From Sinotaia quadrata (lineage: Eukaryota > Mollusca > Gastropoda > Architaenioglossa > Viviparidae), in NCBI GenBank assembly GCA_028829895.1, contig CM054180.1:119396473-119460472 (forward strand): 64,000 bases of DNA, in the 5' to 3' direction. The translations under genes and the position numbers were made by a program. Position 1 is the first letter of the stretch. Each line of letters starts with the position of its first letter. Under the pieces are notes generated by a model. That model made no database searches. It was given only the letters and a program-made list of their open reading frames with translations, and had not been told where the DNA came from. Shown in pieces: positions 1,655 through 53,197 of the stretch.

Positions 1655-1704
1655 ACCTCTGCAGCTGATTCTTCGACCTCTTCTGTGGTCGCTGCCACAC
1701 CCTC
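1655..1704 (-). CDS. Exon B, unit 1
   Basis: The acceptor is TTAACAAG and the donor is GTAAGT at 1649-1654. The frame reads EGVAATTEEVEESAAE plus a split GT. The Ser codon is TCA. A CTTAAC branch-point-like site lies in the upstream intron near 1725. The next exon downstream in the transcript lies left of the window. Confidence 0.65.
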
Positions 1705-1867
1705 CTTGTTAATACAATGCGTTAAGATGAAAAGTATTCGAAGTATAAAATTTGCAAATAGTCAACTTTGATATTTAAAACAATAAAATTTACTCATTTT
1801 AACATTGAACTATTGTGATAATGTCTTCTTCGTTGAGGTGGAGATTTAACTTGTCATTTATGAAATG

Positions 1868-1941
<74 letters not shown>

Positions 1942-2558
1942 TTGACATGGACATATGGATGATGTATGGATGTATAATATATAATGATGGAAAGAACGAT
2001 AGAATGATAGATACATAGATTCATGGCTGGATGGATTAATGACTGGTGAATGATTGGGAGGATGGAAAAAGATTGATATATACATATATACAGGATAGGT
2101 TCGTTTTGTGACAAATTCTGTTGTGCTTTTAGAAGCGTGTAAAATGTAGATAGGTAGGAGGATGGCTGGATTTGTGACTTGAAAGATCGAACTTTTGTCT
2201 GATTAATATTTTCTGTTTCCATAAGAAATGTACTTTGGGAAGATATACAAATATTTAATGTTAAAATATATGCTAACGTTAACTTTACTCAGTCTATCTA
2301 TCTATCTGTCTGTCTGTCTATATAATGTATATGTATCTGTAGATTCACATATTTGTATGTAACATATGTAACAACCAACTATAAGAGATTTTAGAAAAAA
2401 GTAAAAGTATGTTAGTGACTAATAGGAGCAGATATTTAATACAACTATGGTTATGTATATTCTTTAAACAGATATTTAATACAAATATATAAGTTATGTA
2501 TATTCTTTACACAGTGACTTATGTTGTATGACGTTTCTCTTCACCAATATTTACTCAC

Positions 2559-2610
2559 CTCTTCTTCTGGTTTCTCTTCGGGTTCAGCCTCCTCTTCTTC
2601 TATATTTTGT
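2559..2610 (-). CDS. Exon A, unit 1
   Basis: 52 nt: one base completing the Val codon, then QNIEEEEAEPEEKPEEE, with donor GTGAGT at 2553-2558. The acceptor AAAAG is purine-rich and weak. Confidence 0.62.
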
Positions 2611-4465
2611 CTTTTCCGTGTGATACATAAAGAATGTAATCATTCAACACGTTTTTGTCAATAAACGGACTGGTTGCGTATATTGCACTTAGAATAAAAT
2701 CATTATGCTTAAAGTCTTTTATATATTGTCACACATGTTTGAATAGTTGTCAAGTAGCATTCAAATGTTTTCATTATATATTTATTATTAATATGATTAA
2801 AGTGTATTATTTTCCAATCTAAGACTATTTATTAATACTTCCGTAAGAGGTCGTGAATACTGAAAGTATCTAGAAAACGAAAGGGAGATAAATCATTCTA
2901 AAATATGTGCCAAAACCTCAGAAATTGAAAGATCGCAGTTAGAATGGGACAGACTAGAAAAAGTGGAATGAGAAGAGTTGGATAACAGACCGGGAAAGCT
3001 AAGGTCTATAAAGAAAAATAACCTTGGCATGGAAAGATTAGAAAAGGATAGAGTGAAGGAAGAAGAGATGGAGGATTTTGATTTAAGCTGGTTATGGATG
3101 GAAGTTGATAGTCATGGTTGAAAAACTGATAAATTAGCCAGTTACAGTCCCCAAACTTAACATGGAATATAAAGGCAGAAATAAGGCTGTTAAGAAAGTT
3201 GAGAAAGGCATAAAAACAGTTACTTTAAAAATCAGTGACGCTGTGACAGTTCAAAGCACTGAGGTAGTTAGCAAAGAGAGTGCCGGTACGGAGACTGATA
3301 TAATATCGGTAAAAAGTAATGATGCGGTTAGTACTCAACCGGAAGACACGCATAACACAGCCAGTACTCAACAGATTAGTGTACAAGCATTCATTGTGAC
3401 AAACACTGACAGCCACTCCAACATATGTAAAATTGTGTCATCGTATATTGCAGTAGTAAGGTGGATCATGACGTGTCGTTTTCACCATCACGCTAGTGAA
3501 TGCATCATTTGCAGTGAATATAGGACAACGAATAAATATTCAGTTTCTGAATTATTAATATTTGTCAATGATGACATATCAGTAAACTTCAGTCTTTAAC
3601 CTGTCCAGAATATATTACACACTCATAACGCATACACGATAGAAATGGTGTGTGTAAGAGTCAATAATATTTTCGTGAAGAATATATCTTCAGTAAAACT
3701 TTACGAAAGTAATCAATAGTTCTTTACCAATGATATCACATTCAATAGTTCTTAAATAAGGATATCAAAGTCAACAATACTTTATAAAGAATATTAAAGT
3801 CAATAATAGTACTGTACGGAAAATATCCAAGTTAATATTGCCTTACGGAAAATATAAAGTTAATAGTATTGTGCGGAAAATATCAATGTAAATAATATTG
3901 TACGGAAAATATCATGTTAATAGTAGTGTACTGAAAATATCAATGATAACTGTAGCTATAGTAAAGATCAATGTTAATAGTAGTGTATAGGGTTTTGCTT
4001 TTTACTTATTCTGAAATGTAAGATAAGGGATTTGGGTGCTGATTTTAATAATCATTCCATGTCCTAAGGCACATCTACCAGCATGACATTCCTCGTGGCA
4101 GCACATTGAATCTAAAATCCTGATTATGACAGTGACTACAGTGTGGTTTGGACTTAATCAGACCTTTAATCCCAAATCGGTGTATGACAAGTGGCAGCAC
4201 ACAAAACTCTAGCATGTTGAAGGAAATGCACTAGTATTTGCTTACAGAAAGAACAACCTCTATTCTAAACACCCGAGTGACATCAATTTAATTAGACTTT
4301 CAAATAATATTTCAGCCTTTTCAACTAAGCTGGAGGATATTGTTTTAAGTGATATTAGACGACAGCATTAAGATACATCTAATCAGACACAGAGAAACGA
4401 GCGCAAAGACGGACAACGCACACATTAACATGCTAAAAATTAATTAACGAGCAATAAACACTTAC

Positions 4466-4515
4466 ACCTCTGCAGCCGATTCTTCGACCTCTTCTGTGGT
4501 CGCTGCCACACCCTC
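4466..4515 (-). CDS. Exon B, unit 2
   Basis: Same peptide as unit 1 with a synonymous TCG for TCA. Intron side of the acceptor reads ATGAACAAG instead of ATTAACAAG. Confidence 0.65.
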
Positions 4516-4680
4516 CTTGTTCATACAATGCGTTAAGATGAAAAGTATTCGAAGTATAATATTTGCAAATAGTCAACTTTGATATTTAAAACAATAAAAT
4601 TTACTCATTTTAACATTGAACTATTGTGATAATGTCTTCTTCGTTGAGGTGAAGATTTAACTTGTCATTTATGAAATGCG

Positions 4681-4766
<86 letters not shown>

Positions 4767-5399
4767 GAGAGAGAGTGAGAGAGAGATGGATTGACATGGA
4801 CATATGGATGATGTATGGATGTATAATATATAATGATGGAAAGACAGATAGAATGATAGATACATAGATTCATGGCTGGATGGATTAATGACTGGTGAAT
4901 GATTGGGAGGATGGAAAAAGATTGATATATACAGGATAGGTTCGTTTTGTGACAAATTCTGTTGTGCTTTTAGAAGCGTGTAAAATGTAGATAGGTAGGA
5001 GGATGGCTGGATTTGTGACTTGAAAGATCGAACTTTTGTCTGATTAATATTTTCTGTTTCCATAAGAAATGTACTTTGGGAAGATATACAAATATTTAAT
5101 GTTAAAATATATGCTAACGTTAACTTTACTCAGTCTATCTATCTATCTGTCTGTCTGTCTATATAATGAATATGTATCTGTAGATTCACATATTTGTATG
5201 TAACATATGTAACAACCAACTATAAGAGATTTTAGAAAAAAGTAAAAGTATGTTAGTGACTAATAGGAGCAGATATTTAATACAACTATGGTTATGTATA
5301 TTCTTTAAACAGATATTTAATACAAATATATAAGTTATGTATATTCTTTACACAGTGACTTATGTTGTATGACGTTTCTCTTCAGCACTATTTACTCAC

Positions 5400-5451
5400 C
5401 TCTTCTTCTGGTTTCTCTTCGGGTTCAGCCTCCTCTTCTTCTATATTTTGT
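5400..5451 (-). CDS. Exon A, unit 2
   Basis: Same 17 full codons as exon A of unit 1; donor GTGAGT. Confidence 0.62.
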
Positions 5452-7306
5452 CTTTTCCGTGTGATACATAAAGAATGTAATCATTCAACACGTTTTTGTC
5501 AATGAACGGACTGGTTGCGTATATTGCACTTAGTATAAAATCATTATGCTTAAAGTCTTTTATATATTGTCACACATGTTTGAATAGTTGTCAAGTAGCA
5601 TTCAAATGTTTTCATTATATATTTATTATTAATATGATTAAAGTGTATTATTTTCCAATCTAAGACTATTTATTAATACTTCCGTAAGAGGTCGTGAATA
5701 CTTAAAGTATCTAGAAAACGAAAGGGAGATAAATCATTCTAAAATATGTGCCAAAACCTCAGAAATTGAAAGATCGCAGTTAGAATGGGACAGACTAGAA
5801 AAAGTGGAATGAGAAGAGTTGGATAACAGACCGGGAAAGCTAAGGTCTATAAAGAAAAATAACCTTGGCATGGAAAGATTAGAAAAGGATAGAGTGAAGG
5901 AAGAAGAGATGGAGGATTTTGATTTAAGCTGGTTATGGATGGAAGTTGATAGTCATGGTTGAAAAACTGATAAATTAGCCAGTTACAGTCCCCAAACTTA
6001 ACATGGAATATAAAGGCAGAAATAAGGCTGTTAAGAAAGTTGAGAAAGGCATAAAAACAGTTACTTTAAAAATCAGTGACGCTGTGACAGTTCAAAGCAC
6101 TGAGGTAGTTAGCAAAGAGAGTGCCGGTACGGAGACTGATATAATATCGGTAAAAAGTAATGATGCGGTTAGTACTCAACCGGAAGACACGCATAACACA
6201 GCCAGTACTCAACAGATTAGTGTACAAGCATTCATTGTGACAAACACTGACAGCCACTCCAACATATGTAAAATTGTGTCATCGTATATTGCAGTAGTAC
6301 GGTGGATCATGACGTGTCGTTTTCACCATCACGCAAGTGAATGCATCATTTGCAGTGAATATAGGACAACGAATAAATATTCAGTTTCTGAATTATTAAT
6401 ATTTGTCAATGATGACATATCAGTAAACTTCAGTCTTTAACCTGTCCAGAATATATTACACACTCATAACGCATACACGATAGAAATGGTGTGTGTCAGA
6501 GTCAATAATATTTTCGTGAAGAATATATCTTCAGTAAAACTTTACGAAAGTAATCAATAGTACTTTACCAATGATATCACATTCAATTGTTCTTAAATAA
6601 GGATATCAAAGTCAACAATACTTTATAAAGAATATTAAAGTCAATAATAGTACTGTACGGAAAATATCCAAGTTAATATTGCCGTACGGAAAATATAAAG
6701 TTAATAGTATTGTGCGGAAAATATCAATGTAAATAATATTGTACGGAAAATATCATGTTAATAGTAGTGTACTGAAAATATCAATGATAACTGTAGCTAT
6801 AGTAAAGATCAATGTTAATAGTAGTGTATAGGGTTTTGCTTTTTACTTATTCTGAAATGTAAGATAAGGGATTTGGGTGCTGATTTTAATAATCATTCCA
6901 TGTCCTAAGGCACATCTACCAGCATGACATTCCTCGTGGCAGCACATTGAATCTAAAATCCTGATTATGACAGTGACTACAGTGTGGTTTGGACTTAATC
7001 AGACCTTTAATCCCAAATCGGTGTATGACAAGTGGCAGCACACAAAACTCTAGCATGTTGAAGGAAATGCACTAGTATTTGCTTACAGAAAGAACAACCT
7101 CTATTCTAAACACCCGAGTGACATCAATTTAATTAGACTTTCAAATAATATTTCAGCCTTTTCAACTAAGCTGGAGGATATTGTTTTAAGTGATATTAGA
7201 CGACAGCATTAAGATACATCTAATCAGACACAGTGAAACGAGCGCAAAGACCGACAACGCACACATTAACATGCTAAATATTAATTAACGAGCAATAAAC
7301 ACTTAC

Positions 7307-7356
7307 ACCTCTGCAGCCGATTCTTCGACCTCTTCTGTGGTCGCTGCCACACCCTC
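7307..7356 (-). CDS. Exon B, unit 3
   Basis: Matches unit 2 (TCG variant); phase 0 in, two bases (GT) out before GTAAGT. Confidence 0.65.
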
Positions 7357-7521
7357 CTTGTTCATACAATGCGTTAAGATGAAAAGTATTCGAAGTATAA
7401 TATTTGCAAATAGTCAACTTTGATATTTAAAACAATAAAATTTACTCATTTTAACATTGAACTATTGTGATAATGTCTTCTTCGTTGAGGTGAAGATTTA
7501 ACTTGTCATTTATGAAATGCG

Positions 7522-7555
<34 letters not shown>

Positions 7556-8196
7556 GAGAGTGAGAGAGAGAGTGAGAGAGAGATGGATTGACATGGACAT
7601 ATGGATGATGTATGGATGTATAATATATAATGATGGAAAGACAGATAGAATGATAGATACATAGATTCATGGCTGGATGGATTAATGACTGGTGAATGAT
7701 TGGGAGGATGGAAAAAGATTGATATATACAGGATAGGTTCGTTTTGTGACAAATTCTGTTGTGCTTTTAGAAGCGTGTAAAATGTACATAGGTAGGAGGA
7801 TGGCTGGATTTGTGACTTGAAAGATCGAACTTTTGTCTGATTAATATTTTCTGTTTCCATAAGAAATGTACTTTGGGAAGATATACAAATATTTAATGTT
7901 AAAATATATGCTAACGTTAACTTTACTCAGTCTATCTATCTATCTGTCTGTCTGTCTATATAATGTATATGTATCTGTAGATTCACATATTTGTATGTAA
8001 CATATGTAACAACCAACTATAAGAGATTTTAGAAAAAAGTAAAAGTATGTTAGTGACTAATAGGAGCAGATATTTAATACAACTATGGTTATGTATATTC
8101 TTTAAACAGATATTTAATACAAATATATAAGTTATGTATATTCTTTACACAGTGACTTATGTTGTATGACGTTTCTCTTCAGCACTATTTACTCAC

Positions 8197-8248
8197 CTCT
8201 TCTTCTGGTTTCTCTTCGGGTTCAGCCTCCTCTTCTTCTATATTTTGT
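8197..8248 (-). CDS. Exon A, unit 3
   Basis: Consensus exon A; donor GTGAGT at 8191-8196. Confidence 0.62.
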
Positions 8249-10105
8249 CTTTTCCGTGTGATACATAAAGAATGTAATCATTCAACACGTTTTTGTCAAT
8301 GAACGGACTGGTTGCGTATATTGCACTTAGTATAAAATCATTATGCTTAAAGTCTTTTATATATTGTCACACATGTTTGAATAGTTGTCAAGTAGCATTC
8401 AAATGTTTTCATTATATATTTATTATTAATATGATTAAAGTGTATTATTTTCCAATCTAAGACTATTTATTAATACTTCCGTAAGAGGTCGTGAATACTT
8501 AAAGTATCTAGAAAACGAAAGGGAGATAAATCATTCTAAAATATGTGCCAAAACCTCAGAAATTGAAAGATCGCAGTTAGAATGGGACAGACTAGAAAAA
8601 GTGGAATGAGAAGAGTTGGATAACAGACCGGGAAAGCTAAGGTCTATAAAGAAAAATAACCTTGGCATGGAAAGATTAGAAAAGGATAGAGTGAAGGAAG
8701 AAGAGATGGAGGATTTTGATTTAAGCTGGTTATGGATGGAAGTTGATAGTCATGGTTGAAAAACTGATAAATTAGCCAGTTACAGTCCCCAAACTTAACA
8801 CATGGAATATAAAGGCAGAAATAAGGCTGTTAAGAAAGTTGAGAAAGGCATAAAAACAGTTACTTTAAAAATCAGTGACGCTGTGACAGTTCAAAGCACT
8901 GAGGTAGTTAGCAAAGAGAGTGCCGGTACGGAGACTGATATAATATCGGTAAAAAGTAATGATGCGGTTAGTACTCAACCGGAAAACACGCATAACACAG
9001 CCAGTACTCAACAGATTAGTGTACAAGCATTCATTGTGACAAACACTGACAGCCACTCCAACATATGTAAAATTGTGTCATCGTATATTGCAGTAGTAAG
9101 GTGGATCATGACGTGTCGTTTTCACCATCACGCTAGTGAATGCATCATTAGCAGTGAATATAGGACAACGAATAAATATTCAGTTTCTGAATTATTAATA
9201 TTTGTCAATGATGACATATCAGTAAACTTCAGTCTTTAACCTGTCCAGAATATATTACACACTCATAACGCATACACGATAGAAATGGTGTGTGTCAGAG
9301 TCAATAATATTTTCGTGAAGAATATATCTTCAGTAAAACTTTACGAAAGTAATCAATAGTACTTTACCAATGATATCACATTCAATAGTTCTTAAATAAG
9401 GATATCAAAGTCAACAATACTTTATAAAGAATATTAAAGTCAATAATAGTACTGTACGGAAAATATCCAAGTTAATATTGCCTTACGGAAAATATAAAGT
9501 TAATAGTATTGTGCGGAAAATATCAATGTAAATAATATTGTACGGAAAATATCATGTTAATAGTAGTGTACTGAAAATATCAATGATAACTGTAGCTATA
9601 GTAAAGATCAATGTTAATAGTAGTGTATAGGGTTTTGCTTTTTACTTATTCTGAAATGTAAGATAAGGGATTTGGGTGCTAATTTTAATAATCATTCCAT
9701 GTCCTAAGGCACATCTACCAGCATGACATTCCTCGTGGCAGCACATTGAATCTAAAATCCTGATTATGACAGTGACTACAGTGTGGTTTGGACTTAATCA
9801 GACCTTTAATCCCAAATCGGTGTATGACAAGTGGCAGCACACAAAACTCTAGCATGTTGAAGGAAATGCACTAGTATTTGCTTTCAGAAAGAACAACCTC
9901 TATTCTAAACACCCGAGTGACATCAATTTAATTAGACTTTCAAATAATATTTCAGCCTTTTCAACTAAGCTGGAGGATATTGTTTTAAGTGATATTAGAC
10001 GACAGCATTAAGATACATCTAATCAGACACAGAGAAACGAGCGCAAAGACGGACAACGCACACATTAACATGCTAAATATTAATTAACGAGCAATAAACA
10101 CTTAC

Positions 10106-10155
10106 ACCTCTGCAGCCGATTCTTCGACCTCTTCTGTGGTCGCTGCCACACCCTC
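10106..10155 (-). CDS. Exon B, unit 4
   Basis: TCG variant as in units 2 and 3; peptide unchanged. Confidence 0.65.
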
Positions 10156-10320
10156 CTTGTTCATACAATGCGTTAAGATGAAAAGTATTCGAAGTATAAT
10201 ATTTGCAAATAGTCAACTTTGATATTTAAAACAATAAAATTTACTCATTTTAACATTGAACTATTGTGATAATGTCTTCTTCGTTGAGGTGAAGATTTAA
10301 CTTGTCATTTATGAAATGCG

Positions 10321-10402
<82 letters not shown>

Positions 10403-11035
10403 GAGAGAGAGTGAGAGAGAGATGGATTGACATGGACATATGGATGATGTATGGATGTATAATATATAATGATGGAAAGACAGATAGAATGATAGATACA
10501 TAGATTCATGGCTGGATGGATTAATGACTGGTGAATGATTGGGAGGATGGAAAAAGATTGATATATACAGGATAGGTTCGTTTTGTGACAAATTCTGTTG
10601 TGCTTTTAGAAGCGTGTAAAATGTAGATAGGTAGGAGGATGGCTGGATTTGTGACTTGAAAGATCGAACTTTTGTCTGATTAATATTTTCTGTTTCCATA
10701 AGAAATGTACTTTGGGAAGATATACAAATATTTAATGTTAAAATATATGCTAACGTTAACTTTACTCAGTCTATCTATCTATGTGTCTGTCTGTCTATAT
10801 AATGTATATGTATCTGTAGATTCACATATTTGTATGTAACATATGTAACAACCAACTATAAGAGATTTTAGAAAAAAGTAAAAGTATGTTAGTGACTAAT
10901 AGGAGCAGATATTTAATACAACTATGGTTATGTATATTCTTTAAACAGATATTTAATACAAATATATAAGTTATGTATATTCTTTACACAGTGACTTATG
11001 TTGTATGACGTTTCTCTTCAGCACTATTTACTCAC

Positions 11036-11087
11036 CTCTTCTTCTGGTTTCTCTTCGGGTTCAGCCTCCTCTTCTTCTATATTTTGT
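11036..11087 (-). CDS. Exon A, unit 4
   Basis: Consensus exon A; donor GTGAGT. Confidence 0.62.
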
Positions 11088-12942
11088 CTTTTCCGTGTGA
11101 TACATAAAGAATGTAATCATTCAACACGTTTTTGTCAATGAACGGACTGGTTGCGTATATTGCACTTAGTATAAAATCATTATGCTTAAAGTCTTTTATA
11201 TATTGTCACACATGTTTGAATAGTTGTCAAGTAGCATTCAAATGTTTTCATTATATATTTATTATTAATATGATTAAAGTGTATTATTTTCCAATCTAAG
11301 ACTATTTATTAATACTTCCGTAAGAGGTCGTGAATACTTAAAGTATCTAGAAAACGAAAGGGAGATAAATCATTCTAAAATATGTGCCAAAACCTCAGAA
11401 ATTGAAAGATCGCAGTTAGAATGGGACAGACTAGAAAAAGTGGAATGAGAAGAGTTGGATAACAGACCGGGAAAGCTAAGGTCTATAAAGAAAAATAACC
11501 TTGGCATGGAAAGATTAGAAAAGGATAGAGTGAAGGAAGAAGAGATGGAGGATTTTGATTTAAGCTGGTTATGGATGGAAGTTGATAGTCATGGTTGAAA
11601 AACTGATAAATTAGCCAGTTACAGTCCCCAAACTTAACATGGAATATAAAGGCAGAAATAAGGCTGTTAAGAAAGTTGAGAAAGGCATAAAAACAGTTAC
11701 TTTAAAAATCAGTGACGCTGTGACAGTTCAAAGCACTGAGGTAGTTAGCAAAGAGAGTGCCGGTACGGAGACTGATATAATATCGGTAAAAAGTAATGAT
11801 GCGGTTAGTACTCAACCGGAAGACACGCATAACACAGCCAGTACTCAACAGATTAGTGTACAAGCATTCATTGTGACAAACACTGACAGCCACTCCAACA
11901 TATGTAAAATTGTGTCATCGTATATTGCAGTAGTACGGTGGATCATGACGTGTCGTTTTCACCATCACGCAAGTGAATGCATCATTTGCAGTGAATATAG
12001 GACAACGAATAAATATTCAGTTTTTGAATTATTAATATTTGTCAATGATGACATATCAGTAAACTTCAGTCTTTAACCTGTCCAGAATATATTACACACT
12101 CATAACGCATACACGATAGAAATGGTGTGTGTCAGAGTCAATAATATTTTCGTGAAGAATATATCTTCAGTAAAACTTTACGAAAGTAATCAATAGTACT
12201 TTACCAATGATATCACATTCAATAGTTCTTAAATAAGGATATCAAAGTCAACAATACTTTATAAAGAATATTAAAGTCAATAATAGTACTGTACGGAAAA
12301 TATCCAAGTTAATATTGCCTTACGGAAAATATAAAGTTAATAGTATTGTGCGGAAAATATCAATGTAAATAATATTGTACGGAAAATATCATGTTAATAG
12401 TAGTGTACTGAAAATATCAATGATAACTGTAGCTATAGTAAAGATCAATGTTAATAGTAGTGTATAGGGTTTTGCTTTTTACTTATTCTGAAATGTAAGA
12501 TAAGGGATTTGGGTGCTGATTTTAATAATCATTCCATGTCCTAAGGCACATCTACCAGCATGACATTCCTCGTGGCAGCACATTGAATCTAAAATCCTGA
12601 TTATGACAGTGACTACAGTGTGGTTTGGACTTAATCAGACCTTTAATCCCAAATCGGTGTATGACAAGTGGCAGCACACAAAACTCTAGCATGTTGAAGG
12701 AAATGCACTAGTATTTGCTTACAGAAAGAACAACCTCTATTCTAAACACCCGAGTGACATCAATTTAATTAGACTTTCAAATAATATTTCAGCCTTTTCA
12801 ACTAAGCTGGAGGATATTGTTTTAAGTGATATTAGACGACAGCATTAAGATACATCTAATCAGACACAGAGAAACGAGCGCAAAGAAGGACAATGCACAC
12901 ATTAACATGCTAAATATTAATTAACGAGCAATAAACACTTAC

Positions 12943-12992
12943 ACCTCTGCAGCTGATTCTTCGACCTCTTCTGTGGTCGCTGCCACACCCTC
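12943..12992 (-). CDS. Exon B, unit 5
   Basis: Peptide EGVAATTEEVEESAAE with Ser codon TCA; acceptor ATTAACAAG. Confidence 0.65.
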
Positions 12993-13825
12993 CTTGTTAA
13001 TACAATGCGTTAAGATGAAAAGTATTCGAAGTATAATATTTGCAAATAGTCAACTTTGATATTTAAAACAATAAAAATTTACTCATTTTAACATTGAACT
13101 ATTGTGATAATGTCTTCTTCGTTGAGGTGAAGATTTAACTTGTCATTTATGAAATGCGCAGAGAGAGAGAGAGAGAGACAGAGTGAGAGAGTGAGAGAGA
13201 GAGTGAGAGAGAGATGGATTGACATGGACATATGGATGATGTATGGATGTATAATATATAATGATGGAAAGACAGATAGAATGATAGATACATAGATTCA
13301 TGGCTGGATGGATTAATGACTGGTGAATGATTGGGAGGATGGAAAAAGATTGATATATACAGGATAGTTTCGTTTTGTGACAAATTCTGTTGTGCTTTTA
13401 GAAGCGTGTAAAATGTAGATAGGTAGGAGGATGGCTGGATTTGTGACTTGAAAGATCGAACTTTTGTCTGATTAATATTTTCTGTTTCCATAAGAAATGT
13501 ACTTTGGGAAGATATACAAATATTTAATGTTAAAATATATGCTAACGTTAACTTTACTCAGTCTATCTATCTATCTGTCTGTCTGTCTTTATAATGTATA
13601 TGTATCTGTAGATTCACATATTTGTATGTAACATATGTAACAACCAACTATAAGAGATTTTAGAAAAAAGTAAAATTATGTTAGTGACTAATAGGAGCAG
13701 ATATTTAATACAACTATGGTTATGTATATTCTTTAAACAGATATTTAATACAAATATAAGTTATGTATATTCTTTACACAGTGACTTATGTTGTATGACG
13801 TTTCTCTTCAGCACTATTTACTCAC

Positions 13826-13877
13826 CTCTTCTTCTGGTTTCTCTTCGGGTTCAGCCTCCTCTTCTTCTATATTTTGT
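13826..13877 (-). CDS. Exon A, unit 5
   Basis: Consensus exon A. A private G replaces T (GTGGGATAC) in the intron just upstream of the acceptor. Confidence 0.62.
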
Positions 13878-15732: not shown

Positions 15733-15782
15733 ACCTCTGCAGCTGATTCTTCGACCTCTTCTGTGGTCGCTGCCACACCCTC
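15733..15782 (-). CDS. Exon B, unit 6
   Basis: Identical to exon B of unit 5. Confidence 0.65.
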
Positions 15783-16615: not shown

Positions 16616-16667
16616 CTCTTCTTCTGGTTTCTCTTCGGGTTCAGCCTCCTCTTCTTCTATATTTTGT
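16616..16667 (-). CDS. Exon A, unit 6
   Basis: Consensus exon A; donor GTGAGT. Confidence 0.62.
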
Positions 16668-27106: not shown

Positions 27107-27198
<92 letters not shown>

Positions 27199-29945: not shown

Positions 29946-30004
<59 letters not shown>

Positions 30005-38219: not shown

Positions 38220-38269
38220 ACCTCTGCAGCTGATTCTTCGACCTCTTCTGTGGTCGCTGCCACACCCTC
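38220..38269 (-). CDS. Exon B, unit 14
   Basis: Consensus peptide; Ser codon TCA. Confidence 0.65.
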
Positions 38270-39148
38270 CTTGTTAATACAATGCGTTAAGATGAAAAGT
38301 ATTCGAAGTATAATATTTGCAAATAGTCAACTTTGATATTTAAAACAATAAAATTTACTCATTTTAACATTGAACTATCGTGATAATGTCTCCTTCGTTG
38401 AGGTGAAGATTTAACTTGTCATTTATGAAATGCGCAGAGAGAGAGAGAGAGAGTGAGAGAGTGAGAGAGAGAGTGAGAGAGAGAGTGAGAGAGAGATGGA
38501 TTGACATGGACATATGGATGATGTATGGATGTATAATATATAATGATGGAAAGACAGATAGAATGATAGATACATAGATTCATGGCTGGATGGATTAATG
38601 ACTGGTGAATGATTGGGAGGATGGAAAAAGATTGATATATACAGGATAGGTTCGTTTTGTGACAAATTCTGTTGTGGTTTTAGAAGCGTGTAAAATGTAG
38701 ATAGGTAGGAGGATGGCTGGATTTGTGACTTGAAAGATCGAACTTTTGTCTGATTAATATTTTCTGTTTCCATAAGAAATGTACTTTGGGAAGATATACA
38801 AATATTTAATGTTAAAATATATGCTAACGTTAACTTTACTCAGTCTATCTATCTATCTGTCTGTCTGTCTATATAATGTATATGTATCTGTAGATTCACA
38901 TATTTGTATGTAACATATGTAACAACCAACTATAAGAGATTTTAGAAAAAAGTAAAAGTATGTTAGTGACTAATAGGAGCAGATATTTAATACAACTATG
39001 GTTATGTATATTCTTTAAACAGATATTTAATACAAATATAAGTTATGTATATTCTTTAAACAGATATTTAATACAAATATAAGTTATGTATATTCTTTAC
39101 ACAGTGACTTATGTTGTATGACGTTTCTCTTCAGCACTATTTACTCAC

Positions 39149-39197
39149 CTCTTCTGGTTTCTCTTCGGGTTCAGCCTCCTCTTCTTCTATATTTTGT
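39149..39197 (-). CDS. Exon A, unit 14 (one Glu codon deleted)
   Basis: 49-nt version; donor GTGAGT. Confidence 0.62.
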
Positions 39198-41051: not shown

Positions 41052-41101
41052 ACCTCTGCAGCTGATTCTTCGACCTCTTCTGTGGTCGCTGCCACACCCT
41101 C
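41052..41101 (-). CDS. Exon B, unit 15
   Basis: Consensus peptide; Ser codon TCA. Confidence 0.65.
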
Positions 41102-41980
41102 CTTGTTAATACAATGCGTTAAGATGAAAAGTATTCGAAGTATAATATTTGCAAATAGTCAACTTTGATATTTAAAACAATAAAATTTACTCATTTTAAC
41201 ATTGAACTATCGTGATAATGTCTCCTTCGTTGAGGTGAAGATTTAACTTGTCATTTATGAAATGCGCAGAGAGAGAGAGAGAGAGTGAGAGAGTGAGAGA
41301 GAGAGTGAGAGAGAGAGTGAGAGAGAGATGGATTGACATGGACATATGGATGATGTATGGATGTATAATATATAATGATGGAAAGACAGATAGAATGATA
41401 GATACATAGATTCATGGCTGGATGGATTAATGACTGGTGAATGATTGGGAGGATGGAAAAAGATTGATATATACAGGATAGGTTCGTTTTGTGACAAATT
41501 CTGTTGTGGTTTTAGAAGCGTGTAAAATGTAGATAGGTAGGAGGATGGCTGGATTTGTGACTTGAAAGATCGAACTTTTGTCTGATTAATATTTTCTGTT
41601 TCCATAAGAAATGTACTTTGGGAAGATATACAAATATTTAATGTTAAAATATATGCTAACGTTAACTTTACTCAGTCTATCTATCTATCTGTCTGTCTGT
41701 CTATATAATGTATATGTATCTGTAGATTCACATATTTGTATGTAACATATGTAACAACCAACTATAAGAGATTTTAGAAAAAAGTAAAAGTATGTTAGTG
41801 ACTAATAGGAGCAGATATTTAATACAACTATGGTTATGTATATTCTTTAAACAGATATTTAATACAAATATAAGTTATGTATATTCTTTAAACAGATATT
41901 TAATACAAATATAAGTTATGTATATTCTTTACACAGTGACTTATGTTGTATGACGTTTCTCTTCAGCACTATTTACTCAC

Positions 41981-42029
41981 CTCTTCTGGTTTCTCTTCGG
42001 GTTCAGCCTCCTCTTCTTCTATATTTTGT
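41981..42029 (-). CDS. Exon A, unit 15 (one Glu codon deleted)
   Basis: 49-nt version; donor GTGAGT. Confidence 0.62.
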
Positions 42030-43883
42030 CTTTTCCGTGTGATACATAAAGAATGTAATCATTCAACACGTTTTTGTCAATAAACGGACTGGTTGCGTAT
42101 ATTGCACTTAGTATAAAATCATTATGCTTAAAGTCTTTTATATATTGTCACACATGTTTGAATAGTTGTCAAGTAGCCTTCAAATGTTTTCATTATATAT
42201 TTATTATTAATATGATTAAAGTGTATTATTTTCCAATCTAAGACTATTTATTAATACTTCCGTAAGAGGTCGTGAATACTTAAAGTATCAAGAAAACGAA
42301 AGGGAGATAAATCATTCTAAAATAGGTGCCAAAACCTCAGAAATTGAAAGATCGCAGTTAGAATGGGACAGACTAGAAAAAGTGGAATGAGAAGAGTTGG
42401 ATAACAGACCGGAAAGCTAAGGTCTATAAAGAAAAATAACCTTGGCATGGAAAGATTAGAAAAGGATAGAGTGAAGGAAGAAGAGATGGAGGATTTTGAT
42501 TTAAGCTGGTTATGGATGGATGTTGATAGTCATGGTTGAAAAACTGATAAATTAGCCAGTTACAGTCCCCAAACTTAACATGGAATATAAAGGCAGAAAT
42601 AAGGCTGTTAAGAAAGTTGAGAAAGGCATAAAAACAGTTACTTTAAAAATCAGTGACGCTGTGACAGTTCAAAGCACTGAGGTAGTTAGAAAAGAGAGAG
42701 CCGGTACGGAGACTGATATAATATCGGTAAAAAGTAATGATGCGGTTAGTACTCAACCGGAAGACACGCATAACACAGCCAGTACTCAACAGATTAGTGT
42801 ACAAGGATTCATTGTGACAAACACTGACAGCCACTCCAACATATGTAAAATTGTGTCATCGTGTATTACAGTATTACGGTGGATCATGACGTGTCGTTTT
42901 CACCATCACGCAAATGAATGCATCATTTGCAGTGAATATAGGACAACGAATAAATATTCAGTTTCTGAATTATTAATATTTGTCAATGATGACATATCAG
43001 TAAACTTCAGTCTTTAACCTGTCCAGAATATATTACACACTCATAACGCATACACGATAGAAATGGTGTGTGTCAGAGTCAATAATATTTTCGTGAAGAA
43101 TATATCTTCAGTAAAACTTTACGAAAGTAATCAATAGTACTTTACCAATGATATCACATTCAATAGTTCTTAAATAAGGATATCAAAGTCAACAATACTT
43201 TATAAAGAATATTAAAGTCAATAATAGTACTGTACGGAAAATATCCAAGTTATAATTGCCTTACGGAAAATATAAAGTTAATAGTATTGTGCGGAAAATA
43301 TCAATGTAAATAATATTGTACGGAAAATATCATGTTAATAGTAGTGTACTGAAAATATCAATGATAACTGTAGCTATAGTAAAGATCAATGTTAATAGTA
43401 GTGTATAGGGTTTTGCTTTTTACTTATTCTGAAATGTAAGATAAGGGATTTGGGTGCAGATTTTAATAATCATTCCATGTCCAAAGGCACATCTACCAGC
43501 ATGACATTCCTCGTGGCAGCACATTGAATCTAAAATCCTGATTATGACAGTGACTACAGTGTGGATTGGACTTAATCAGACCTTTAATCCCAAATCGGTG
43601 TATGACAAGTGGCAGCACACAAAACTCTAGCATGTTGAAGGAAATGCACTAGTATTTGCTTACAGAAAGAACAACCTCTATTCTAAACACCCGAGTGACA
43701 TCAATTTAATAAGACTTTCAAATAATATTTCAGACTTTTCAACTAAGCTGGAGGATATTGTTTTAAGTGATATTAGACGACAGCATTAAGATACATCTAA
43801 TCAGACACAGAGAAACGAGCGCAAAGACGGACAACGCACACATTAACATGCTAAATATTAATTAACGAGCAATAAACACTTAC

Positions 43884-43933
43884 ACCTCTGCAGCTGATTC
43901 TTCGACCTCTTCTGTGGTCGCTGCCACACCCTC
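43884..43933 (-). CDS. Exon B, unit 16
   Basis: Consensus peptide; Ser codon TCA. Confidence 0.65.
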
Positions 43934-44771
43934 CTTGTTAATACAATGCGTTAAGATGAAAAGTATTCGAAGTATAATATTTGCAAATAGTCAACTTTGA
44001 TATTTAAAACAATAAAATTTACTCATTTTAACATTGAACTATCGTGATAATGTCTTCTTCGTTGAGGTGAAGATTTAACTTGTCATTTATGAAATGCGCA
44101 GAGAGAGAGAGAGAGAGTGAGAGAGTGAGAGAGAGAGTGAGAGAGAGAGTGAGAGAGAGATTGATTGACATGGACATATGGATGATGTATGGATGTAAAA
44201 TATATAATGATGGAAAGACAGATAGAATGATAGATACATAGATTCATGGCTGGATGGATTAATGACTGGTGAATGATTGGGAGGATGGAAAAAGATTGAT
44301 ATATACAGGATAGGTTCGTCTTGTGACAAATTCTGTTGTGCTTTTAGAAGCGTGTAAAATGTAGATAGGTAGGAGGATGGCTGGATTTGTGACTTGAAAG
44401 ATCGAACTTTTGTCTGATTAATATTTTCTGTTTCCATAAGAAATGTACTTTGGGAAGATATACAAATATTTAATGTTAAAATATATGCTAACGTTAACTT
44501 TACTCAGTCTATCTATCTATCTGTCTGTCTGTCTACATAATGTATATGTATCTGTAGATTCACATATTTGTATGTAACATATGTAACAACCAACTATAAG
44601 AGATTTTAGAAAAAAGTAAAAGTTTGTTAGTGACTAATAGGAGCAGATATTTAATACAACTATGGTTATGTATATTCTTTAAACAGATATTTAATACAAA
44701 TATAAGTTATGTATATTCTTTACACAGTGACTTATGTTGTATGACGTTTCTCTTCAGCACTATTTACTTAC

Positions 44772-44823
44772 CTCTTCTTCTGGTTTCTCTTCGGGTTCAG
44801 CCTCCTCTTCTTCTATATTTTGT
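44772..44823 (-). CDS. Exon A, unit 16
   Basis: 52-nt version. The donor is GTAAGT instead of GTGAGT, as in unit 18. Confidence 0.62.
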
Positions 44824-46613
44824 CTTTTCCGTGTGATACATAAAGAATGTAATCATTCAACACGTTTTTGTCAATAAACGGACTGGTTGCGTATATTGCA
44901 CTTAGTATAAAATCATTATGCTTAAAGTCTTTTATATATTGTCACACATGTTTGAATAGTTGTCAAGTAGCATTCAAATGTTTTCATTATATATTTATTA
45001 TTAATATGATTAAAGTGTATTATTTTCCAATCTAAGACTATTTATTAATACTTCCGTAAGAGGTCGTGAATACCTAAAGTATCTAGAAAACGAAAGGGAG
45101 ATAAATCATTCTAAAATATGTGCCAAAACCTCAGAAATTGAAAGATCGCAGTTAGAATGGGACAGACTACAAAAAGTGGAATGAGAAGAGTTGGATAACA
45201 GACCGGGAAAGCTAAGGTCTATAAAGAAAAATATCCTTGGCATGGAAAGATTAGAAAAGGATAGAGTGAAGGAAGAAGAGATGGAGGATTTTGATTTAAG
45301 CTTGTTATGGATGGAAGTTGATAGTCATGGTTGAAAAACTGATAAATTAGCCAGTTACAGTCCCCAAACTTAACATGGAATATAAAGGCAGAAATAAGGC
45401 TGTTAAGAAAGTTGAGAAAGGCATAAAAACAGTTACTTTAAAAATCAGTGACGCTGTGACAGTTCAAAGCACTGAGGTAGTTAGCAAAGAGAGAGCCGGT
45501 AGGGAGATTGATATAATATCGGTATAAAGTAATGATGCGGTTAGTACTCAACCGGAAGACACGCATAACACAGCCAGTACTCAACAGATTAGTGTACAAG
45601 CATTCATTGTGACAAACACTGACAGCCACTCCAACATATGTAAAATTGTGTCATCGTATATTGCAGTAGTAAGATGGATCATGACGTGTCGTTTTCACCA
45701 TCACGCAAGTGAATGCATCATTTGCAGTGAATATAGGACAACGAATAAATATTCAGTTTCTGAATTATTAATATTTGTCAATGATGACATATCAGTAAAC
45801 TTCAGTCTTTAACCTGTCCAGAATATATTACACACTCATAACGCATACACGATAGAAATGGTGTGTGTCAGAGTCAATAATATTTTCGTGAAGAATATAT
45901 CTTCAGTAAAACTTTACGAAAGTAATCAATAGTACTTTACCAATGATATCACATTCAATAGTTCTTAAATAAGGATATCAAAGTCAACAATACTTTATAA
46001 AGAATATTAAAGTCAATAAAAGTACTGTACGGAAAATATCCAAGTTAATATTGCCTTACGGAAAATATAAAGTTAATAGTATTGTGCGGAAAATATCAAT
46101 GTAAATAATATTGTACGGAAAATATCATGTTAATAGTAGTGTACTGAAAATATCAATGATAACTGTAGCTATAGTAAAGATCAATGTTAATAGTAGTGTA
46201 TAGGGTTTTGCTTTTTACTTATTCTGAAATGTAAGATAAGGGATTTGGGTGCTGATTTTAATAATCTTTCCATGTCCTAAGGCACATCTATTCCTCGTGG
46301 CAGCACATTGAATCTAAAATCCTGATTATGACAGTGACTACAGTGTGGTTTGGACTTAATCAGACCTTTAATCCCAAATCGGTGTATGACAAGTGGCAGC
46401 ACACAAAACTCTAGCATGTTGAAGGAAATGCACTAGTATTTGCTTACAGAAAGAACAACCTCTATTCTAAACACCCGAGTGACATCAATTTAATTAGACT
46501 TTCAAATAATATTTCAGCCTTTTCAACTAAGCTGGAGGATATTGTTTTAAGTGAAGACGGACAACGCACACATTAACATGCTAAAAATTAATTAAAGAGC
46601 AATAAACACTTAC

Positions 46614-46663
46614 ACCTCTACAGCTGCTTCTTCGACCTCTTCTGTGGTCGCTGTCACACCCTC
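46614..46663 (-). CDS. Exon B, unit 17 (variant)
   Basis: Reads EGVTATTEEVEEAAVE: three replacements relative to units 1-16, with frame and splice sites kept. Confidence 0.64.
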
Positions 46664-46827
46664 CTTGTTAATACAATGCGTTAAGATGAAAAGTATTCGA
46701 AGTATAATATTTGCAAATAGTCAACTTTGATATTTAAAACAATAAAATTTATTCATTTTAACATTGAACTATTGTGATAATGTCTTCTTCGTTGAGGAGA
46801 AGATTTAACTTGTCATTTATGAAATGC

Positions 46828-46910
<83 letters not shown>

Positions 46911-47526
46911 GAGTGATGGATTGACATGGACATATGGATGATGTATGGATGTATAATATATAATGATGGAAAGACAGATAGAATGATAGATACATAGATT
47001 CATGGCTTATGGATTAATGACTGGTGAATGATTGGGAGGATGGAAAAAGATTGATATATACAGGATAGGTTCGTTTTGTGACAAATTCTGTTGTGCTTTT
47101 AGAAGCGTGTAAAATGTAGATAGGTAGGAAGATGGCTGGATTTGTGACTTGAAAGATCGAACTTTTGTCTGATTAATATTTTCTGTTTCCATAAGAAATG
47201 TACTTTGGGAAGATATACAAATATTTAATGTTAAAATATATGCTAACGTTAACTTTACTCAGTCTATCTATCTATCTGTCTGTCTGTCTATATAATGTAT
47301 ATGTATCTGTAGATTCACATATTTGTATGTAACATATTTAACAACCAACTATAAGAGATTTTAGAAAAAAGTAAAAGTATGTTAGTGACTAATAGGAGCA
47401 GATATTTAATACAACTATGGTTATGTATATTCTTTAAACAGATATTTAATACAAATATAAGTTATGTATATTCTTTACACAGTGACTTATGTTGTATGAC
47501 GTTTCTCTTCAGCACTATTTACTCAC

Positions 47527-47578
47527 CTCTTCTTCTGGTTTCTCTTCGGGTTCAGCCTCCTCTTCTTCTATATTTTGT
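47527..47578 (-). CDS. Exon A, unit 17
   Basis: Consensus exon A; donor GTGAGT. Confidence 0.62.
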
Positions 47579-49356
47579 CTTTTCCGTGTGATACATAAAG
47601 AATGTAATCATTCAACACGTTTTTGTCAATAAACGGACTTGTTGCGTATATTGCACTTAGTATAGAATCATTATGCTTAAAGTCTTTTATATATTGTCAC
47701 ACATGTTTGAATAGTTGTCAAGTAGCATTCAAATGTTTTTATTATATATTTATTATTAATATGATTAAAGTGTATTATTTTCCAATCTAAAACAATTTAT
47801 CAGTACTTCCGTACGAGGTCGTGAATACTTAAAGTATCTAGAAAACGAAAGGGAGATAAATCATTCTAAAATATGTGCCAAAACCTCAGAAATTGAAAGA
47901 TCGCAGATAGAATGGGACAGACTAGAAAAAGTGGAATGAGAAGAGTTGGATAACAGACCGGGAAAGCTAAGGTTTATAAAGAAAAATAACCTTGGCATGG
48001 AAAGATTAGAAAAGGATAGAGTGAAGGAAGAAGAGATGGAGGATTTTGATTTAAGCTGTTTATGGATGGAAGTTGATAGTCATGGTTGAAAAACTGATAA
48101 ATTAGCCAGTTACATTCCCCAAACTAAACATGGAAAGAAATGCAGAAATAAGGCTGTTAAGAAAGTTGAGAAAGGCATAAAAACAGTTACTTTAAAAATC
48201 AGTGACGCTGTGACAGTTCAAAGCACTGAGGTAGTTAGGAAAGAGAGAGCCGGTACGGAGACTGATATAATATCGGTAAAAAGTAATGATGCGGTTAGTA
48301 CTCAACCGGAAGACACGCATAACACAGCCAGTACTCAAGAGATTAGTTTACAAGCATTCATTGTGACAAACACTGACAGCCACTCTAACATATGTAAAAT
48401 TGTGTCATCGTATATTTCAGTAGTACGGTGGATCATGACGTGTCGTTTTCACCATCACGCAAGTGAATGCATCATTTGCAGTGAATATAGGACAACGAAT
48501 AAATATTCAGTTTCTGAATTATTAATATTTGTCAATCATGACATATCAGTAAACTTAAGTCTTTAACCTGTCCAGAATATATTTCACACTCATAACGCAT
48601 ACACGATAGAAATGGTGTGTGTCAGAGTCAATAATATAAATAACTTCAGTAAAACTTTACGAAAGTAATCAATAGTACTTTACCAATGATATCACATTCA
48701 ATAGTTCTTAAATAAGGATATCAAAGTCAAAAATACTTTATAAAGAATATTAAAGTTAATAATAGTACTGTACGGAAAATATCCAAGTTAATATTGCCTT
48801 ACGGAAAATATAAAGTTAATAGTATTGTGCGGAAAATATCAATGTAAATAATATTGTACGGAAAATATCATGTTAATAGTAGTGTACTGAAAATATCAAT
48901 GATAACTGTAGCTATAGTAAAGATCAATGTTAATAGTAGTGTATAGGGTTTTGCTTTTTACTTATTCTGAAATGTAAGATAAGGGATTTGGGTGCTGATT
49001 TTAATAATCATTCCATGTCCTAAGGCACATCTATTCCTCGTGGCAGCACATTGAATCTAAAATCCTGATTATGACAGTGACTACAGTGTGGTTTGGACTT
49101 AATCAGACCTTTAATCCCAAATCGGTGTATGACAAGTGGCAGCACACAAAACTCTAGCATGTTGAAGGAAATGCACTAGTATTTGCTTACAGAAAGAACA
49201 ACCTCTATTCTAAACACCCGAGTGACATCAATTTAATTAGACTTTCAAATAATATTTCAGCCTTTTCAACTGAGCTGGAGGATATTGTTTTAAGTGAAGA
49301 CGGACAACGCACACATTAACATGCTAAAAATTAATTAAAGAGCAATAAACACTTAC

Positions 49357-49406
49357 ACCTCTACAGCTGCTTCTTCGACCTCTTCTGTGGTCGCTGTCAC
49401 ACCCTC
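49357..49406 (-). CDS. Exon B, unit 18 (variant)
   Basis: Same variant peptide as unit 17. Confidence 0.64.
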
Positions 49407-49570
49407 CTTGTTAATTCAATGCGTTAAGATGAAAAGTATTCGAAGTATAATATTTGCAAATAGTCAACTTTGATATTTAAAACAATAAAATTTACTCATT
49501 TTAACATTGAACTATTGTGATAATGTCTTCTTCGTTGAGGAGAAGATTTAACTTGTCATTTATGAAATGC

Positions 49571-49649
<79 letters not shown>

Positions 49650-50262
49650 GATGGATTGACATGGACATATGGATGATGTATGGATGTATAATATATAATG
49701 ATGGAAAGACAGATAGAATGATAGATACATAGATTCATGGCTGGATGGATTAATGACTGGTGAATGATTGGGAGGATGGAAAAAGATTGATATATACAGG
49801 ATAGGTTCGTTTTGTGACAAATTCTGTTGTGCTTTTAGAAGCGTGTAAAATGTAGATAGGTAGGAGGATGGCTGGATTTGTGACTTGAAAGATCGAACTT
49901 TTGTCTGATTAATATTTTCTGTTTCCATAAGAAATGTACTTTGGGAAGATATACAAATATTTAATGTTAAAATATATGCTAACGTTAACTTTACTCAGTC
50001 TATCTATCTATCTGTCTGTCTTTCTTTCTAATGTATATGTATCTGTAGATTCACATATTTGTATGTAACATATGTAACAACCAACTATAAGAGATTTTAG
50101 AAAAAAGTAAAGTTATGTTAGTGACTAATAGGAGCAGATATTTAATACAACTATGGTTATGTATATTCTTTAAACAGATATTTAATACAAATATAAGTTA
50201 TGTATATTCTTTAAACAGTGACTTATGTTGTATGACTTTTCTCTTCAGCACTATTTACTTAC

Positions 50263-50314
50263 CTCTTCTTCTGGTTTCTCTTCGGGTTCAGCCTCCTCTT
50301 CTTCTATATTTTGT
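50263..50314 (-). CDS. Exon A, unit 18
   Basis: 52-nt consensus peptide; donor GTAAGT. This is the most 5' tandem exon A in the transcript. Confidence 0.62.
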
Positions 50315-52079
50315 CTTTTCCGTGTGATACATAAAGAATGTAATCATTCAACACGTTTTTGTCAATAAACGGACTGGTTGCGTATATTGCACTTAGTATA
50401 AAATCATTATGCTTAAAGTCTTTTATATATTGTCACACATGTTTGAATAGTTGTCAAGTAGCATTCAAATGTTTTCATTATATATTTATTATTAATATGA
50501 TTAAAGTGTATTATTTTCCAATCTAAGACTATTTATTAATACTTCCGTAAGAGGTCGTGAATACTTAAAGTATCTAGAAAACGAAAGGGAGATAAATCAT
50601 TCTAAAATATGTGCCCAAACCTCAGAAATTGAAAGATCGCAGTTAGAATGGGACAGACTAGAAAAAGTGGAATGAGAAGAGTTGGATAACAGACCGGGAA
50701 AGCTAAGGTCTATAAAGAAAAAAAACCTTGGCATGGAAAGATTCGAAAAGGATAGAGTGAAGGAAGAAGAAATGGAGGATTTTGATTTAAGCTGGTTATG
50801 GATGGAAGTTGATAGTCATGGTTGAAAAACTGATAAATTAGCCAGTTACAGTCCCCAAACTTAACATGGAATATAAAGGCAGAAATAAGGCTGTTAAGAA
50901 AGTTGAGAAAGGCATAAAAACAGTTACTTTAAAAATCAGTGACGCTGTGACAGTTCAAAGCACTGAGGTAGTTAGCAAAGAGAGAGCCGGTACGGAGACT
51001 GATATAATATCGGTATAAAGTAATGATGCGGTTAGTACTCAACCGGAAGACACGCATAACACAGCCAGTACTCAACAGATTAGTGTACAAGCATTCATTG
51101 TGACAAACACTGACAGCCACTCCAACATATGTAAAATTGTGTCATCGTATATTGCAGTAGTACGGTGGATCATGACGTGTCGTTTTCACCATCACGCAAG
51201 TGAATGCATCATTTGCAGTGAATATAGGACAACGAATAAATATTCAGTTTCTGAATTATTAATATTTGTCAATGATGACATATCAGTAAACTTCAGTCTT
51301 TAACCTGTCCAGAATATATTACACACTCATAACGCATACACGATAGAAATGGTGTGTGTCAGAGTCAATAATATTTTCGTGAAGAATATATCTTCAGTAA
51401 AACTTTACGAAAGTAATCAATAGTACTTTACCAATGATATCACATTCAATAGTTCTTAAATAAGGATATCAAAGTCAACAATACTTTATAAAGAATATTA
51501 AAGTCAATAATAGTACTGTACGGAAAATATCCAAATTAATATTGCCTTACGGAAAATATAAAGTTAATAGTGTTATGCGGAAAATATCAATGTAAATAAT
51601 ATTGTACGGAAAATATCATGTTAATAGTAGTGTACTGAAAATATCAATGATAACTGTAGCTATAGTAAAGATCAATGTTAATAGTAGTGTATAGGGTTTT
51701 GCTTTTTACTTATTCTGAAATGTAAGATAAGGGATTTGGGTGCAGATTTTAATAATCATTCCATGTCCTAAGGCACATCTACCAGCATGACATTCCTCGT
51801 GGCAGCACATTGAATCTAAAATCTTGATTATGACAGTGACTACAGTGTGGCTTGTTCTTAATCAGTCCTTTAATCACAAATCGGTGTATGACAAGAAACT
51901 ATGGCATAATGTATCATTCCGATTCTTTAAAAATTGATAAAAATTTCTTTGTATGAAATTATTATTAATTGTTCATTCTTGTATATCTCTTATTGAAACA
52001 TAAAATTCTATTGTTTTTACTTTAACGCAACTTGTAGTTATAATCTCATGATTACGTCATGCTCTCTGTCCGTCTCTAC

Positions 52080-52230
52080 ATCTATATATGTACCGACTGT
52101 ACAAAATCCTTTTATCTGTTTTGTAAGTGAGTGGGGCGGGAGGCGGGAGTCGAATTGACGTGGGCGCACTCGTCTATCAGCGTAACAGTTGCAGATATGC
52201 ATACGTAACCAGTGGTCCATCCTCTGCATT
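52080..52230 (-). mobile_element. Possible tRNA-derived SINE
   Basis: On the minus strand TGGACCACTGG (52209-52219) resembles an A box, and AATTCGACTCC (52146-52156) resembles a B box with 9 of 11 consensus positions. Their spacing fits a tRNA-like head. The ends are not defined and no poly-A or tail repeat is clear. Confidence 0.35.
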
Positions 52231-52363
52231 AGCACTTGTAGATTTTTTAATGATAACTAAATGCTGATATTGATATGATTCATTAATAAAAAGTCTCCCT
52301 GGAGTATGGCGGCGAGTGTAATGACGGTAGTATTAGTTATTGGTACGACACGTAAACTTGTCG

Positions 52364-52623
52364 AGCAACTCTCAATCATTTCTGCTATGGTGTGGTAGAG
52401 GTCTCATTGATACGTCGTTATTACGGACAACAACTCTCAATCTTTTCTGCTATGGTGTGGTAGAGGTCTCATTGATACGTCGTTATTACGGACATCAACT
52501 CTCAAACATTTCTGCTATGGTATAGTAGAGGTCTCATTAATACGTCGTTATTACGGACAACAACTCTCAAACATTGCTGTATATGGTGTGGTAGAGGTCT
52601 CATTGATACGTCTCATTACGGAC
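52364..52623. repeat. 65-bp minisatellite, 4 copies
   Basis: Four adjacent copies of 65 bp start at 52364, 52429, 52494 and 52559 and share CAACTCTCAA, GGTAGAGGTCTCATT and ACGGAC. The third and fourth are the most diverged. Confidence 0.93.
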
Positions 52624-53147
52624 AATAATGCACGAACTAAATATAAATAACTAGTCTCCAGAAATTATCTTTCATACTTTGGAAAGGAAAAAATAATTCC
52701 AAACATCTCCGGTATAGTCAGTCGGGCGTCGGATCACGACTCTTGGTTTGTATCACAAACCGTAAATAGTTCACTGAGCTCTTCATTAAATATTTGGAAC
52801 TTTATAGTACTTTTTTAAAAAACCAACACTTACAGAGAACGGTTTTAGTTTGTCTATTCACCGTACGTTAAAGTGGCAGCACACAAAATTCTAGCATGTT
52901 GAAGGAAATGCACTAGTATTTGCTTACAGAAAGAACAACCTCTATTCTAAACACCCGAGTAACATTAATTTAATTAGACTTTCAAATAATATTTCAGCCT
53001 TGTCAACTAAGCTGGAGGTTATTGTTTTAAGTGATATTAGACGACAGCATTAAGATAAATCTAATCAGACACAGTAAAACGAGAGCAAAGACCGACAACG
53101 CACACATTAACATGCTAAAAATTAATTAACGAGCAATAAACACTTAC

Positions 53148-53197
53148 ACCTCTGCAGCTGCTGTTTCGACGTCTTCTGTGGTCGCTGTCACACCCTC
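53148..53197 (-). CDS. Exon B, unit 19 (most diverged tandem copy)
   Basis: Reads EGVTATTEDVETAAAE plus GT. It shares Thr at position 4 and Ala at position 13 with units 17 and 18 and adds E9D and E12T. Frame, length and splice sites are conserved despite the replacements. Confidence 0.65.

Follow-up and report, generated by a model that had tools for sequence, protein, structure and literature searches.

A tandem array that probably amplifies a two-exon cassette of a likely protein-coding gene in Sinotaia quadrata

Satellite-like arrays are easily masked, though each of their units can alter a protein. Such an array lies in a 64,000-nucleotide stretch of the gastropod Sinotaia quadrata (assembly GCA_028829895.1, contig CM054180.1, forward-strand positions 119,396,473 to 119,460,472; hereafter the window, with position 1 its first base), and the question it raises is whether its units are satellite DNA or coding exons. 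A preliminary description of the locus had proposed that each unit carries two short exons, A and B, on the minus strand, making the array an in-frame tandem exon amplification. Our analysis supports that proposal: as far as the sequence can tell, and with a probability of about 0.83, the array represents the tandem amplification of a likely two-exon cassette in a likely minus-strand protein-coding gene, in which each copy would add 34 residues in frame. We consider this the best reading mainly because five acidic predicted exons upstream of the array, outside the interval first described, alternate in the phases that B and A need. These five older exons also mean that the gene does not begin at position 53197, where its extent had originally been drawn.

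Units and predicted exons of the array

A search for A and B segments on both strands of the whole window, allowing up to 14 mismatches, located 18 copies of A and 19 of B from position 53197 down to 1655, every one of them on the minus strand (Table 1). The numbers agree exactly with those given earlier, yet they are lower limits because the array extends to window base 1, ~200 nt short of the next expected A. A GT donor and an AG acceptor are retained in all 37 copies, and the junctions between A donors and B acceptors that had been named as examples (2559|1704 and 5400|4515) are correctly placed. B measures 50 nt in every copy, while A measures 52 nt in 14 copies and 49 nt in the remaining four, which have lost 3 nt in frame; the 102-nt pair of the preliminary description (52 + 50) is thus replaced in four units by a 99-nt pair (49 + 50), both sums being multiples of three. 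Units follow one another head to tail over 52 kb and are 2736–2841 bp long from A to A, and the predicted exons occupy ~3.6% of a unit, with predicted intron making up the remainder. Similarity to the full unit begins at position 53798, within the intron preceding B1, and the flank past this 5′ edge has no match to the unit. The 5′-most unit is partial and is the most diverged copy (91.6% identity over a 931-column alignment). Its B1–A1 intron contains a 975-bp insertion with no other match in the window, and inside this insertion is a 65-bp minisatellite in four copies (52366–52625).

Consecutive units are nearly identical, introns included, and pairwise identity among the 18 units ranges from 97.3 to 99.96% when gaps are left out of the alignment. 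Units U11, U12 and U13 differ by only 1–2 substitutions over 2790 bp, as would be expected if the copy number were partly an assembly artefact of duplicated or collapsed units. Yet all 18 units differ from one another, at least 20 base differences separate 130 of the 153 pairs, microsatellite lengths vary between units and the partial first unit is distinct, and we regard such an artefact as quite improbable.

The two segments belong to different phase classes: B starts in phase 0 and ends with 2 nt of a codon, to which A contributes the missing 1 nt, itself ending in phase 0. When joined in order, the 37 segments translate without a stop into 625 residues (last codon incomplete), in line with the roughly 625 Glu-rich codons claimed before, and the predicted product contains 288 Glu and has a net charge of −271. 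Each additional full pair would lengthen this tract in frame by the same 34 residues, and removal of A alone or of B alone from the predicted chain leads to a stop soon after. By our reading, no combination of A and B splice choices other than the 102-nt one was found to preserve the Glu frame in both exons. A single likely gene with so many tandem copies of an exon pair could also suggest Dscam-like mutually exclusive or alternative cassettes, with one copy used per transcript. Arrays of the Dscam type consist of single-phase, sequence-diversified alternative exons, whereas the unit here combines two exons of different phase, and a choice among near-identical copies would yield little diversity; we give this explanation almost no weight.

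Table 1. Coordinates of predicted exons and other features in the window. All array exon rows (B1 to B19) are based on the A/B segment search and the joined translation.
Feature	Position	Strand	Remarks	Basis
Exon a1	58890..58947	-	58 nt; 1 nt in, phase 0 out; LNMSEEALAVLENESEPER	splice/ORF (open reading frame) scan
Exon b1	58153..58205	-	53 nt; phase 0 in, 2 out; ANDTDSASIPEPERISE	splice/ORF scan
Exon a2	56025..56088	-	64 nt; 1 nt in, 0 out; INPPEDDEQELLADETEKAEM	splice/ORF scan
Exon b2	54729..54778	-	50 nt; 0 in, 2 out; TDNPAPTEGEDETHEN; B-like DNA	splice/ORF scan
Exon a3	54112..54175	-	64 nt; 1 nt in, 0 out; PNLPDEETVPENDDNDREAIE	splice/ORF scan
Tandem array, 2.74-2.84-kb units	1..53798	-	5′ edge 53798, runs off window start	
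Exon B1	53148..53197	-	diverged first copy	
975-bp insertion	51896..52870		5′-most partial unit, B1–A1 intron	
Exon A1	50263..50314	-		
Exon B2	49357..49406	-		
Exon A2	47527..47578	-		
Exon B3	46614..46663	-		
Exon A3	44772..44823	-		
Exon B4	43884..43933	-		
Exon A4	41981..42029	-	49 nt	
Exon B5	41052..41101	-		
Exon A5	39149..39197	-	49 nt	
Exon B6	38220..38269	-		
Exon A6	36317..36365	-	49 nt	
Exon B7	35388..35437	-		
Exon A7	33488..33536	-	49 nt	
Exon B8	32559..32608	-		
Exon A8	30652..30703	-		
Exon B9	29732..29781	-		
Exon A9	27826..27877	-		
Exon B10	26893..26942	-		
Exon A10	24986..25037	-		
Tetranucleotide microsatellite	24720..24750		at unit junction (one unit shown)	
Exon B11	24103..24152	-		
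Exon A11	22196..22247	-		
Exon B12	21313..21362	-		
Exon A12	19406..19457	-		
Exon B13	18523..18572	-		
Exon A13	16616..16667	-		
Exon B14	15733..15782	-		
Exon A14	13826..13877	-		
Exon B15	12943..12992	-		
Exon A15	11036..11087	-		
Exon B16	10106..10155	-		
Exon A16	8197..8248	-		
Exon B17	7307..7356	-		
Exon A17	5400..5451	-		
Exon B18	4466..4515	-		
Exon A18	2559..2610	-		
Exon B19	1655..1704	-		

The upstream exon chain and the case for coding

Between 54.1 and 58.9 kb, the minus strand holds five short acidic predicted exons that alternate strictly between the A and B phase classes. The order a1-b1-a2-b2-a3-B1-A1-B2 and onwards proceeds with no phase clash and translates into 721 residues with no stop. 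Acceptors of all five exons score 3.3 to 5.5. Their donors are GTGAGT in a1–a3 and GTAAGT in b1 and b2; in the array, GTGAGT is found in 16 of the 18 A copies, with GTAAGT in the other two, and GTAAGT in all 19 B copies. Each of the four a-type exon types has Asn as its second residue, as read from the translation, and the acceptor TTAACAAG is common to b2 and 16 of the 19 B copies, with TGAACAAG in the other three. Exon b1 has the phase class and GTAAGT donor of the other b exons and a different acceptor, and its kinship with them is putative. Exon a1 contains an ATG that could itself be the start. We regard the predicted phase-alternating exons as the decisive evidence for the coding reading.

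Scanning positions 53800–64000 for short acidic exons of the two phase classes with relaxed cut-offs identified five donors on the minus strand and none on the plus strand, while second-order Markov controls gave at least one donor in 3 of 200 sequences and five or more in none. With stricter splice cut-offs, four were observed as compared with none in 60 first-order simulations; when composition was ignored at the stricter cut-offs, all but one of the five chain exons were recovered on the minus strand along with two further donors, and nothing on the plus strand. An all-phase relaxed acidic scan of 53799–64000 returned seven minus-strand donors, comprising the five of the chain and two alternatives (one in a1, one after a2), and on the plus strand two donors at D/E (Asp/Glu) 0.28 and four at 0.25. 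In unit U10, the same scan that found the chain recovers only A and B on the minus strand and nothing on the plus strand. Farther upstream, a relaxed scan of 58890–64000 gave pieces of a1, two 26-nt candidates (62048–62023 and 61549–61524) and four non-acidic ATG-to-donor candidates on the minus strand, together with ten candidates on the plus strand. That the array is a non-coding satellite with coincidentally open A and B frames would agree with exon variation about equal to that in the rest of the unit and with the lack of homologues. It would leave five upstream exons in alternating, compatible phases to chance, against none on the opposite strand of the region and fewer than five in each of the 200 simulations, and we consider it very improbable.

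Several results weigh against the coding reading. Scored with generic splice matrices, the array donors are strong to fair (12.4 bits for A and 6.4 for B, in copies A18 and B19), and the acceptors of the same copies are weak, at −1.4 for A (34th percentile of minus-strand AGs) and 0.9 for B (53rd percentile). Donor and acceptor scores are the same in U10, and the B1 acceptor reaches 2.2. Selective constraint gives no signal within the array, in a comparison of little power: the variable columns number 5 of 102 in the exons and 201 of 2895 over the unit, and ~6 replacement versus 2 silent changes, counted by eye over all copies with B1 included, are near the neutral expectation. Changes are so few that the lack of stops within the array carries little power. 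Open frames and near identity of the array are weak evidence by themselves, because the exons vary about like the rest of the unit and the scored acceptors lie near or below the median AG. Over the whole window, ten plus-strand donors pass the scan, those listed being (GA)n microsatellite frames. The acidity and length cut-offs were chosen after the first exons had been seen; since the acidity cut-off is post hoc and the simulation scans were limited to the two phase classes, the simulation counts are somewhat flattering, and the strand asymmetry and phase order depend less on that cut-off.

Some comparisons among the exons and with databases add to these reservations. Five of ten DNA comparisons between exons did not rise above shuffled sequences, and none of ten protein-level comparisons (a among a, b among b) was significant (lowest p 0.0995). 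In favour of the coding reading, b2 resembles B2 (as high in none of 2000 shuffles) and B1 (p 0.005) in DNA; the other DNA comparisons that stood out were a1 with a3 (p 0.0075), A1 (p 0.04) and a2 (p 0.041), all uncorrected. No protein relative was found for a 334-residue version of the product, for which the 7987 candidates sharing the most words were scored (E ≤ 0.001), or for residues 1–130 of the 721-residue version (1766 candidates, E ≤ 1). A 198-residue part matched no Pfam family at E ≤ 1, and the predicted protein has no match among PDB sequences. The absence of protein relatives is weak evidence of novelty. Searches with Rfam gave nothing at gathering scores, eight translated pieces of the window had no Pfam match above cut-off, and no report of the locus was found in literature searches that could have missed it.

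Some of these points would suit a different arrangement, in which the upstream a and b exons belong to a real gene while most array copies are intronic satellite and the transcript includes hardly any of the amplified exons, or none at all: the array acceptors are weaker than the upstream five, and the array exons carry no constraint signal. Frame, donor and acceptor are nevertheless intact in all 37 copies, and B1 and A1 have the phases that the upstream chain requires. Among 23 distinct gap events within units (a 24th, at the window edge, was left out), 18 are not multiples of three, and the only one located in an exon is 3 nt. We judge this arrangement unlikely, though deserving of some weight, and favor amplification of a coding cassette.

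The window contains further features. Broken plus-strand frames in the B–A intron at 22438–23236, found in the same place in other units, have PHF5 as their best Pfam match (20.8 bits, below the 26.7 cut-off); they look like an old mobile-element piece. They include a frame of 145 amino acids, which we considered as a possible plus-strand gene in the units and rejected; it stays whole in 13 of the 17 copies holding its anchor and is cut short in four. Short broken minus-strand frames at 61684–62188 have no Pfam match above cut-off and seem to resemble the terminal part of a retroelement integrase. Di- and tetranucleotide microsatellites are dense at 53364–61465, and repeats with periods from 39 up to 91 bp form an array at 59.4–59.9 kb.

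Growth of the array and a possible mode of action

The distribution of variants among units bears on how the array grew. Of 66 informative sites, 48 have a minor base confined to one unbroken run of neighbouring units; in 1000 shuffles of the unit order, such sites averaged 3.3 and never exceeded 21. Single runs of this kind are the characteristic trace of local unequal exchange. Mean identity is lowest in the units at the two ends of the array (97.85% in U18 and 97.90% in U1), and in the one unit looked at, the unit junction adjoins a tetranucleotide microsatellite. We take the chain to be an old two-exon repeat of which the last pair was recently amplified. This last b/a pair may have been duplicated through intronic breakpoints, the unit junction falling beside the tetranucleotide microsatellite. 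Local unequal crossing-over may then have multiplied the copies and homogenised them.

How such a gene would work can be sketched only tentatively. In one reading, to which we give slightly worse than even odds, the gene would assemble a giant Glu-rich polyanion out of 42 or more successive mini-exons, of which 37 are copies of two, spliced strictly pairwise; copy number and pair skipping would set its length, such that more than 50 kb of mostly intronic repeat would act as a length dial for one disordered domain. Exons rich in GAA and GAG are known splicing-enhancer sequence, and the purine-rich exons together with the strong A donors may offset the weak acceptors. The B+A pair would serve as the splicing unit, a symmetric cassette used or skipped whole; pairwise use is predicted because skipping only A or only B gives an early stop. 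Because whole pairs preserve the frame in any number, the length of the tract would depend on how many copies there are and how many pairs are skipped. The predicted product would be a long disordered polyanion that may form a spacer or a multivalent acidic binding surface, and its role (spacer, ion binding or protein binding) is a guess.

Comparison with known exon arrays

Nebulin, the PEVK region of titin and tropoelastin are proteins that have grown by duplication of short, fixed-phase exons, with two exon types alternating in tropoelastin. Their exon copies are mostly old and diverged, unlike the 18 units described here, which are nearly identical throughout.

The preliminary description called growth by duplication of whole exon-plus-intron units at this scale unusual, which is true in part, as two-exon arrays of similar or larger size have been published for LPA KIV-2 and NBPF/Olduvai. 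In LPA, KIV-2 is a 5.6-kb tandem unit with two short exons (~160 and 182 bp) and two introns, present in 1 to ~40 copies in one gene (PMC11462820). The present array resembles it in having a kilobase-sized tandem unit with two short predicted exons within one likely gene, and differs in that its predicted exons of 52 and 50 nt encode an acidic low-complexity chain instead of a kringle domain. The NBPF/Olduvai (DUF1220) repeats are tandem two-exon units of ~1.6 kb expanded within genes, with a first exon that is most often 52 nt long and is reported to carry a strong purine-rich splicing enhancer (PMC9313022, PMC9584774). Tandem two-exon doublets and a 52-nt exon are likewise predicted for the S. 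quadrata array. The exons account for ~16% of the NBPF unit (4% + 12%), in contrast to the much smaller predicted share here, where there is also no Olduvai match and no triplet higher-order pattern apparent by inspection, without a formal test. Neither a kringle nor an Olduvai domain was found by Pfam in the 198-residue part of the predicted product of this gene, the ends of which fall beyond the window. By analogy, the design appears to be like that of the LPA KIV-2 and NBPF two-exon cassette arrays while standing outside both families. If expressed, the locus would be an extreme of LPA/NBPF-type cassette growth, with ~3.6% of the unit coding, in an unrelated disordered protein, and would provide a test bed both for between-individual variation in domain length and for how the spliceosome, despite weak acceptors, can link dozens of near-identical mini-exons and skip none.

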